A stretch of 64,000 nt of DNA from a bacterium. Its GTDB lineage: Bacteria; Hinthialibacterota; Hinthialibacteria; Hinthialibacterales; Hinthialibacteraceae. Under the pieces are notes generated by a model. That model ran no database searches. It was not told where the DNA came from and saw nothing but the letters and a program-made list of their open reading frames with translations. Positions 7,609 to 49,905 of the stretch are shown here, one piece after another; position 1 is the stretch's first letter; each line of letters starts with the position of its first letter. The stretch lies in contig WGLV01000032.1 of NCBI GenBank assembly GCA_016125385.1, positions 62,001-126,000 of the forward strand. The letters are read 5' to 3'. A program made the translations under genes and the position numbers.

Positions 7609-7881
7609 GACGAGTCCTGAATTCTCCACGGATAACGGGGTGAATACCGTGTGGCGGCGGTTTGCCGTAGGGTATGGTATCAGCGCTGGCGCCGCCTCAA
7701 AAGGGAGAGATTCGCGCCGATTTCATGGCCTCCATCTTCTCCATCTCGCTAAATGAATGCGGACAACCGTCTTGAATTAGCAGGCGTGAATAAAATCGCT
7801 TCTCCGCGCCCGTTTCTTCTCATAATAATCATTGATTCCGATCAACGAATCATTCTTGTCGTCGATAATCCAAACCTCTCT

Positions 7882-8030
7882 GAATCACCGATCCCGAATA
7901 TCCATTTCATCCTGTCCGCATCCCGATTAAGACAAAACACACGTTGACTGATCTCAATCTCGCTTTCCCCAGCGCCAACGAGCGCGCTTGATACGCACAA
8001 TCCAAATACTCGCCAAAACCGCTGGCTGGC
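7882..8030. repeat. 149-bp direct repeat, copy 1
   Basis: Aligns without gaps to 8368-8516. The last ~85 bp (from ATCTCAATCTCGC to GCTGGCTGGC) are identical. The first ~60 bp have scattered substitutions. It contains one copy of the 29-nt CCAACGA element (7975-8003). Confidence 0.93.
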
Positions 8031-8053
8031 CTCAGGCGGTGCCTGCGCCCGCC

Positions 8054-8120
8054 GGGTGAAACTTTTGCGAGCGAATGCGGCCATTGGCGGAGCGCCGCCT
8101 GAGCGGGAAAAGTTTTACCC
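8054..8120. repeat. 13-bp inverted repeat enclosing GC-rich hairpins
   Basis: GGGTGAAACTTTT (8054-8066) faces AAAAGTTTTACCC (8108-8120), with one G-U type mismatch. The enclosed ~41 nt include a further GGCG/CGCC stem. It could be a small MITE-like element or a structured RNA; no T-tract follows either arm. Confidence 0.6.
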
Positions 8121-8153
8121 AAGGGCGCGGATGAAATCATGATCAGATTAGGA

Positions 8154-8182
8154 CCAACGAAGCCGCCTGATCCGCACAATCC
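8154..8182 (+). repeat. 29-nt dispersed CCAACGA element
   Basis: Reads CCAACGAAGCCGCCTG then ATCCGCACAATCC. It matches, with few changes, 7975-8003 and 8460-8488 on the same strand, and the reverse complements of 49764-49792 and 49871-49899. Confidence 0.8.
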
Positions 8183-8207
8183 CCATACCTACCTGGGCGT
8201 TGCCGTT

Positions 8208-8254
8208 CGCCCCGTCAGGGGCGGATGCTTGTAGCCCAGCCTTTCAAGGTTGGG
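8208..8254. repeat. Twin hairpin element
   Basis: Two adjacent stems: CGCCCC-GTCA-GGGGCG (8208-8223) and CCCAGCCTT-TC-AAGGTTGGG (8235-8254, one mismatch). No open reading frame uses it. The arrangement resembles short hairpin repeats scattered between genes in environmental genomes. Confidence 0.55.
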
Positions 8255-8367
8255 TATGGCAGGGTACAAAGCCGTTTTTTCGTGTGCTTCTTTCATTTCG
8301 AGTTTTCGTGATTCAAAGAGCGAAATCAATAATGACAAATGTCTCCGATAAATCGTAATAGTCCACC

Positions 8368-8516
8368 GAATCACCGATCATGAATATCTTTTTCATCCTG
8401 TCCGCATCCTGCTTCAGACAAAACACGATGAATATATCTCAATCTCGCTTTCCCCAGCGCCAACGAGCGCGCTTGATACGCACAATCCAAATACTCGCCA
8501 AAACCGCTGGCTGGCC
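8368..8516. repeat. 149-bp direct repeat, copy 2
   Basis: Partner of 7882-8030, same length and orientation, 486 bp downstream. It carries the 29-nt element at 8460-8488. Sequence after GGCTGGC diverges from copy 1, so the repeat boundary is sharp on that side. Confidence 0.93.
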
Positions 8517-8897
8517 GCCAGCCGCGAATTAAGCCGCCTGAATTGCGGTTCTCTCGCGATAGGTGAAGCGCTTCACGTCAAAACCCGTTGCACGCTTTCT
8601 GGGCCGCTCGTTTCATACGGCGGCGCCGGTTTGTGGAAGTTTCCGCTCGCGCAAAAATGGAACGTCCGGTGAAAGGACGAAGAATTACGGGACGCCTCAA
8701 CGAGATTCAGGATTCACGTTGGGCCCAACGAAGCCTTTGACAAAGATGTGATAACGGTTGTTCGAAACGTTTGCGGATGCAAGAACTATCTTCGAATTAA
8801 ACCTTGATCGCCTCGGCGGCATTAGGTGTAGGAAACGTACTGTCCACCATCCTCAAACTGTGTTTTAGCGGTCGAAGACAGAAAGCGAATTTTAGTG

Positions 8898-8926
8898 TTG
8901 ACACAATAGTTGTTATAACGTATATT
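8898..8926 (+). promoter_or_regulatory. Sigma-70-type promoter of the marR-like gene with palindrome in spacer
   Basis: TTGACA (8898-8903), a 17-bp spacer and TATATT (8921-8926), very close to consensus. An 8-bp perfect palindrome GTTATAAC (8912-8919) lies in the spacer, a position suited to autorepression by the MarR-type product. GAGGTG 8 bp before the ATG is the ribosome site. Confidence 0.8.
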
Positions 8927-8948
8927 ATGGGTGTGAGGTGAAAAAAAC

Positions 8949-9419
8949 ATGACTCGTGAACGCCTGATGCGTGAATTGATCCAGACCCGGCCCTTCGACC
9001 CACCGGAAGCCGAAGCGTTTTTCAATCTGTTGAAGACGGAGGAGATGCTCTCTACCCGCCTGGCTGAAACGCTGAAACCATTCGGTCTCACGCCGTCTCA
9101 ATACAACGCGCTGCGTATCGTGAATGGCTCCGGCGTGGAGGGCATCCCAAGCCTGGAGATCGGCGAACGTCTCATTACCCGTGTGCCCGACGTGACCCGC
9201 ATGATCGACCGCCTTGTCGAAAAAGGTCTGGTCGAACGCCGCCGCTCTGATCGAGACCGCCGCGTCGTGCGGGTGTTTATCACTCCTGCGGGTAAGCAGC
9301 TGGTTGAATCGGCGGTCAAACCCTTGCGTAAGTTTCAGAAACAATGGATCGGCGTATTATCCGATGACGATCAGGCTGAGTTGAATCGGCTTCTTTATAA
9401 GCTGAGGTACAGAGATTGA
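8949..9419 (+). CDS. MarR-family transcriptional regulator
   Basis: This 156-residue winged-helix regulator has the family layout: a long first helix, then LKPFGLTPSQYNALRIV, the recognition region LITRVPDVTRMIDRLVEKGLV, the wing ERRRSDRDRRVVRVFITPAG, and a C-terminal dimerisation helix. MarR proteins bind short palindromes as dimers and usually repress their own or adjacent genes until a ligand releases them. A near-consensus promoter with a palindrome in its spacer lies just upstream, so autoregulation is likely. The esterase gene 62 bp downstream on the same strand is a plausible second target. The ligand is unknown. Confidence 0.95.
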   Translation: MTRERLMRELIQTRPFDPPEAEAFFNLLKTEEMLSTRLAETLKPFGLTPSQYNALRIVNGSGVEGIPSLEIGERLITRVPDVTRMIDRLVEKGLVERRRSDRDRRVVRVFITPAGKQLVESAVKPLRKFQKQWIGVLSDDDQAELNRLLYKLRYRD

Positions 9420-49077: not shown

Positions 49078-49737
49078 ATGAATGAAACCATGACTGACGA
49101 AACGAGACGAGTCTCGCGGCGCGGTTGGCTGCGCGCCGTGGGAGCGGCGGCGGGCGTTTGCCTGCTCGGCGGTTGTGACGTTAAACTGCCCAATACGGAA
49201 ATACTCAATCCGCGCGATACGTTTCTGAATCCTCCAACCATGCTCGACCCGAGGCGCGAGTTTGGATACCTCGGCACCATTTCCGTCCAAGTGCCCGCCG
49301 TGTCGGATATTTTTCTGGCGGGGGCGCTTGATGGAGAAACCCTCGAAAGCCCCGACGGCCATTCCGTCGATGAAGCGCCCGCCAACTCACCGGTCGAAGT
49401 GCTTGATGGCATGATACGCGGCGGCGAAACCCTCGATATCTTCGCGTCGGGCACGGCGCGTCATATCCCCACCAAATCGATCTCATTCGGCCCGCGCGGT
49501 TGGGAAACCGTGGTGCAGGCCGGTCCCGCCCGAGGCTATGAAGCGTTTCAGGGCCCCATCGGTGCGCTGGTCGGGTTGTTTAACAACCAGCGGACGCCGT
49601 TTATCATCGGTCAGCGGATTCAGGTCGTCGTCCCCCGTTACGCTCGCAGCCTGTACCTGGCTCTGCTTGATTTTCCTGGCGCTTCCGCCAACAACGAAGG
49701 TTCCTTCGACGTATCCATCGAAGTCATCCGCCGCTAG
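49078..49737 (+). CDS. Tat-type lipoprotein with LecA-like C-terminal domain
   Basis: A 219-residue protein. The N-terminus VSRRGWLRAVGAAAGVCLLGGC combines a twin-arginine motif with a lipobox, so it is probably a Tat-exported lipoprotein. The C-terminal part (ALVGLFNNQRTPFIIGQRI, then LYLALLDFPGASANNEGSFD) resembles the LecA/PA-IL galactose-lectin fold in its calcium-site region. The first half (GYLGTISVQVPAVSDIF) is beta-rich and unassigned. The likely role is carbohydrate binding at the surface. The lectin call is tentative; the signal is firm. Confidence 0.65.
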   Translation: MNETMTDETRRVSRRGWLRAVGAAAGVCLLGGCDVKLPNTEILNPRDTFLNPPTMLDPRREFGYLGTISVQVPAVSDIFLAGALDGETLESPDGHSVDEAPANSPVEVLDGMIRGGETLDIFASGTARHIPTKSISFGPRGWETVVQAGPARGYEAFQGPIGALVGLFNNQRTPFIIGQRIQVVVPRYARSLYLALLDFPGASANNEGSFDVSIEVIRR

Positions 49738-49743
49738 CGGACA

Positions 49744-49798
49744 GTGTCCGCTGCCGAGTCTTTGGGCCGTGCGCACCAAGCGGCCTCGTTGGGCCTGA
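49744..49798. repeat. 55-bp direct repeat, copy 1
   Basis: Matches 49851-49905 with a few substitutions (GTGTCCGC start, GGCCTCGTTGGGCCTGA end). It contains the reverse-strand 29-nt CCAACGA element (49764-49792). Confidence 0.9.
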
Positions 49799-49850
49799 TA
49801 AAGCGTGATCGAGATTCCATTTTAAGATTCAAGCCGGAGTGAAATTGGCC

Positions 49851-49905
49851 GTGTCCGCATCCGAACCTTTGGATCGTGCGCACCAAGCGGCCTCGTTGGG
49901 CCTGA
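49851..49905. repeat. 55-bp direct repeat, copy 2
   Basis: Second copy, 107 bp after copy 1, same orientation and length. It contains the 29-nt element at 49871-49899. Confidence 0.9.

Follow-up and report, generated by a model that had tools for sequence, protein, structure and literature searches.

A mosaic of hairpin-forming repeats in one intergenic gap and a candidate REP/REPIN identity for the Acido-Lenti-1 motif

Small palindromes, their doublets and a RAYT (REP-associated Y1 transposase) gene make up the anatomy of the REP, REPIN and RAYT system (PMC2817692, PMC3116915), while the design of pneumococcal BOX elements combines a fixed module order with a variable middle module (PMC3049150). 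The Acido-Lenti-1 motif (Rfam RF01687) was listed by Weinberg 2010 as a candidate RNA, though not as a cis-regulatory one, and a 2026 pangenome paper describes it as little understood and as a possible regulator of Tannerella protease genes (PMC13298647). Here we compare with these systems an intergenic island at positions 7609-8948 of the window, by which we mean the whole 64,000-nucleotide stretch of DNA that was analysed.

The island is a gene-free, repeat-rich gap between two genes, and none of its six ORFs matched Pfam, consistent with the original prediction that no gene is supported here. That prediction had also placed the island between an argS operon and a MarR gene; MarR does begin at 8949 (plus strand) and argS is nearby, but the immediate left neighbour is a glycoside-hydrolase-2-like gene (start 7608, minus strand) that adjoins argS. 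The gap is divergent. Directly upstream of MarR, past the repeats, lies a promoter-like site (TTGACA-17-TATATT, 8898-8926, plus strand; a consensus match only). The AT-rich, partly palindromic segment 8898-8948 overlaps this site and is a possible autoregulatory MarR operator; MarR homologues in relatives are at most 44% identical. The repeats end before the promoter-like site and would probably act as structured leader or spacer DNA at most.

When the island was compared by BLASTN with its own 5.5-Mb genome, as had been proposed for checking it, ~60 partial matches were found elsewhere. Iterative nhmmer and covariance models assigned ~850 bp of the island to modules, every one on the plus strand, in the order D1-D2, A, D2 relic, B, C, D1-D2, E, while its outer parts, 270 bp on the left (7609-7881) and 200 bp on the right, had no clear matches in the genome. 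The repeats go far beyond chance (E ~1e-11 for D2 copies and 2.7e-26 for the A copy, in the same genome). The island is thus neither a single occurrence nor lacking in conserved structure, the combination that the original prediction had named as counting against it: its pieces are copies of genome-wide families whose order and strand are conserved, and the stems of A and D2 covary through compensatory changes. The island is probably a mosaic of BIME/BOX-like character, in which non-autonomous repeats that fold into hairpins have gathered within a single intergenic gap.

The most prominent repeat had been described as a gapless direct duplication of 149 bp. The duplication was confirmed, although not as a gapless one: 7882-8031 and 8368-8516 share 135 of 150 identities with one 1-nt gap, and the offset shifts from 486 to 485. 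Over the final 81 nt the two copies are identical (7951-8031 and 8436-8516). Its sharp end at GGCTGGCC is likewise real. Each copy is a D element on the plus strand consisting of ATCCTG-type repeats (D1) and a palindromic module (D2): copy 1 (7882-8032) has D1 at 7896-7959 and D2 at 7970-8032 (61.6 bits), and copy 2 (8368-8517) has D1 at 8382-8444 and D2 at 8455-8517 (61.8 bits). The three 29-nt elements noted earlier (7975, 8154 and 8460) turned out to be cores of D2, the middle one lying in a degenerate third copy (8149-8210, plus strand; 20.5 bits, E 2e-6 over 101 bases searched). Adjacent to copy 1, a small plus-strand hairpin that can be read from the sequence (CAGGC-GGT-GCCTG, 8033-8045) has the type of stem seen at D2 ends. 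As for the inverted repeat that had been reported, the long-range pair 7561/8574 looks like chance, whereas 8031/8092 is a D2-type hairpin pairing with the inside of A. The window holds two more D2 copies, on the minus strand (49734-49797 and 49831-49904).

Across the genome, D2 had at least 149 matches (150 candidates scored), and none were found in the 13 other genomes of the phylum examined. Its terminal stem has the form C-N-G-N-C / G-N-C-N-G, most copies carry ACT or GCT as the loop, and the two N positions covary through at least three pair types (92 double-changed cells versus 26 in shuffles, with 0 of 500 shuffles reaching 92). An origin from integron attC sites, considered for the GCCCAAC motif, was set aside because most D2 copies lack the RYYYAAC core. 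In sampled stretches chosen around repeats, with genes taken from a simple codon-scored ORF caller, D2 was almost solely intergenic, enriched in convergent gaps (Fisher p 5e-5) and depleted in divergent ones (p 0.04). REPs likewise favour convergent gaps (PMC3733652). Since the island's gap is divergent, the island is atypically placed for D2. Copies may be tandem, with a period of ~57 nt, and other palindromes surround them. Median likeness between D2 copies was 77% within a locus versus 67% between loci, and the closest copy was local for 31 of the 73 copies that have a local neighbour. Because local copies are more alike than distant ones, local duplication adds to dispersal and explains the island's 150-bp repeat, which, judged by these sequence comparisons, probably consists of two locally duplicated copies of a single genome-wide element. 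An all-against-all BLASTP of 98 genes neighbouring D2 clusters, searched for a mobiliser, yielded only a few recurrent paralogue families. In the same genome, ~22 of the 149 D2 copies listed fall on one 120-kb contig of ordinary GC (G000:C9; L168-L173, L049), a density several-fold above the genome average.

The original prediction of two different hairpin structures was borne out by element A (8045-8128, z -3.6) and by the double hairpin of module B (8204-8254, z -1.9). Element A, an 84-bp hairpin on the plus strand with terminal inverted repeats, has 18 matches in its own genome, of which one is weak (E 4e-4); their ends are sharp and their flanks unrelated, and the 13 other phylum genomes examined have no match. 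Its 25-pair structure shows compensatory changes, such as GAGAC/GTCTC to GCGGC/GCCGC. The proposed check for target-site duplications found none for A: among 17 copies there was no excess of flank matching at 2 or at 4-9 bp, and one match at 3 bp. Transposition of the IS200/IS605 Y1 type leaves no duplication, so the flanks of A would fit a single-strand route.

The modules of the island also recur as an ordered series. Module C (8262-8337, plus strand) consists of degenerate TTTCGTG-type repeats, and module E (8527-8734, plus strand; ~205 nt, four copies in the sampled genome) contains near its end the predicted 12-bp palindrome GTTGGGCCCAAC (8718-8729). In 724 kb of the genome, we counted 8 adjacencies of B followed by C, 12 of C by D1, 17 of D1 by D2, 22 of D2 by D2 and 3 of D2 by E, and a single adjacency of modules on opposite strands. 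Order and strand are therefore kept in the series B-C-D1-D2(n)-E, in which the number of middle modules varies. No terminal inverted repeats or target duplications were seen around this block, and the ends of the unit are not fixed. A genome of the same family (G005) carries a MITE (L054-L059) with the terminal inverted repeat (TIR) ACTCATGTTACGCGC and TA flanks that holds a C-like motif, so module C may derive from a MITE; this TIR had 180 matches in G005 versus 1 for a control and was absent from the island's own genome. In one of these loci (L059), a REP-like hairpin is nested inside the MITE.

Module B is a REP-like double hairpin on the plus strand whose GTAG foot (8231-8234) adjoins the hairpin at 8235-8254; the genome consensus has GATAG instead. 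Between 17 and 18 copies occur in the sampled part of the genome. On the minus strand, 8254-8208 matches RF01687 at 25.3 bits, below the gathering threshold of 37; the best scores were 35.0 bits in the island's own genome and up to 47.7 in relatives, and weak REP-type matches can be frequent in hairpin-rich genomes. In the 95.8% complete draft of the genome we did not find a cognate RAYT for B; its two RAYTs carry other REPs and were ruled out as the source of B on that ground. Given this degree of completeness, B is probably an orphan relic here. Of these two Y1 transposases, one (L031 ~1180-2190, G000:C71) is surrounded by closely packed copies of its own REP-like repeat, GTGGGACCGGCG..CGCCGGTCATG, partly arranged in tandem, and the other (L032 1393-2040, G000:C55) has a GTAGGGGCGGGTTTCAAACCCGCCCCTAC palindrome inside its open frame; similar palindromes occur in D2 clusters.

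Within the phylum, RF01687 adjoins four Y1_Tnp genes (L103, L105, L113 and L114). RAYT proteins of the phylum set were used to pull 80 loci from named genomes, and 60 of these were scanned for RF01687 within 1.5 kb of the gene, accepting E up to 1. Matches were found at 40 of the 60 RAYT genes, with E down to 3.5e-9: at 19 of 20 loci from Acidobacteria, Planctomycetota and Omnitrophota, 11 of 20 in a mixed set and 10 of 20 in Bacteroidota. 'Candidatus Omnitrophota' is apparently the deposit label of two relatives in the island's own phylum, and two scanned loci (L190 and L191) apparently equal L103 and L105, judged by identical scores, so that the independent RAYT evidence comes from the other 58 loci. 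At ~16 of the 60 scanned loci, an inverted RF01687 pair lay close to both ends of the RAYT gene. Of 12 RAYT host genomes, ten had 11-101 RF01687 copies and the other two had 0 and 3; inverted doublets ~100 bp apart were common in host genomes (e.g. G034:C14:12011-12206). The same-family genomes G003 and G005 each had more than 50 matches, and one stretch of G003 (C36:16949-18656) is a tandem array of Acido-Lenti-1 matches spaced ~182 bp apart. In the literature searched, of which coverage was partial, we found no link between RF01687 and RAYTs, no paper combining Rfam, REP elements and transposase misannotation, and no paper containing the sequence TTTCGTGTTTTCGTG.

Taken together, these data indicate that, in several phyla, the B family adjoins or brackets Y1 (RAYT) genes, and that it exists as populations of many copies. 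Because RF01687 lies near RAYT genes, brackets them in inverted pairs and reaches ~100 copies per genome, its sequence context suggests that it most likely represents a REP/REPIN unit and not an sRNA gene in its own right. We consider it probable, with some reserve, that Acido-Lenti-1 is the REP/REPIN substrate of a RAYT clade found in Acidobacteria, Planctomycetota, Bacteroidota and 'Omnitrophota'-labelled genomes, and that the island's own lineage built such REPs into a new composite of BOX-like design (B-C-D1-D2n-E), which includes a palindromic module specific to the lineage (at least 149 copies). The idea that the island is a landing site for small non-coding mobile elements gains from this, as its modules occur at unrelated loci, A has sharp ends and one module is part of a REP family that is associated with a transposase. 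The B copies would be single-stranded DNA hairpins that a RAYT dispersed by working at a GTAG-type foot, a comparable single-strand route may account for the movement of A, and dispersal together with local duplication would have enlarged the D1-D2 clusters. Since A has no target-site duplication, movement is read from dispersal rather than from insertion scars. In the relatives compared, neither an empty site nor a polymorphism was seen, and it is their dispersal that suggests mobility for A, C, D and E.

Other explanations differ in how well they accommodate these observations. The fixed order and strand of the modules could mean that B-C-D1-D2-E is one autonomous-looking composite, of BOX or MITE type, whose parts move together and into which A was inserted later, and the C-like motif inside the TA-flanked TIR elements of G005 would fit such a unit. 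However, modules are found alone and in partial sets, the G005 TIR is missing from the island's genome and neither TIR nor duplication surrounds the block, so we regard a single moving unit as possible but rather unlikely. It is less probable still that the modules, Acido-Lenti-1 included, are structured RNAs (leaders, terminators or sRNAs) kept for a function in their neighbours' transcripts. Compensatory stem changes, the Rfam listing of RF01687 as an sRNA and the enrichment of D2 downstream of genes in convergent gaps are all compatible with that function, although DNA hairpins explain the stem covariation equally well. Moreover, an sRNA gene would not be expected to occur in inverted pairs on both sides of RAYT genes, nor in repeated doublets elsewhere, as RF01687 does; 13 relatives in the phylum lack both A and D2, and the island has no terminator-like site at D2 or A.

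The original prediction had also offered a decayed insertion, and a coding insertion sequence or pseudogene in decay could account for the several 50-90-codon ORFs that are mechanically open in the island. Neither an ORF nor a Pfam remnant of such an insertion was found, as all six ORFs lack a Pfam match; in addition, variation between copies tracks the stems and module content differs from copy to copy, which makes a coding relic highly improbable.

The island is valuable mainly because it hints that a family catalogued in Rfam as sRNA may be a transposase-linked REP, through which RF01687, a curated RNA family of unknown function, would gain a concrete identity. If the mobile REP reading is true, it changes the inference of protease regulation in Tannerella (PMC13298647) and similar annotations. 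RAYTs with double-hairpin repeats in several phyla would open the REP-RAYT model to study well outside Proteobacteria, and the island illustrates how such repeats can accumulate between genes to form composite mosaics.

Compared with MITEs, A and the G005 elements are similarly short and non-coding with inverted ends, although A differs in having no target-site duplication. Like BIMEs, the island is an intergenic mosaic of several palindromic repeats, but its modules hold one orientation, whereas the REPs of BIMEs alternate. With BOX (PMC3049150) it shares a fixed module order and orientation and a variable middle number, a likeness of design; the modules and the phylum are different, and no terminal inverted repeats or target duplication were seen here. 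B has the two-hairpin architecture of Acido-Lenti-1 around a GCTA-like link, although the window copy scores below the gathering threshold. In the comparison with REP/REPIN and RAYT (PMC2817692, PMC3116915, PMC3733652), B differs in its double rather than single hairpin and in that a cognate RAYT was not found in its own genome, and A and D2 differ in being unrelated in sequence and without a known transposase, while small extragenic palindromes in many copies, the GTAG foot of B, the position of RF01687 next to genes for Y1 transposases, the inverted doublets of other genomes and a preference for convergent gaps are shared.
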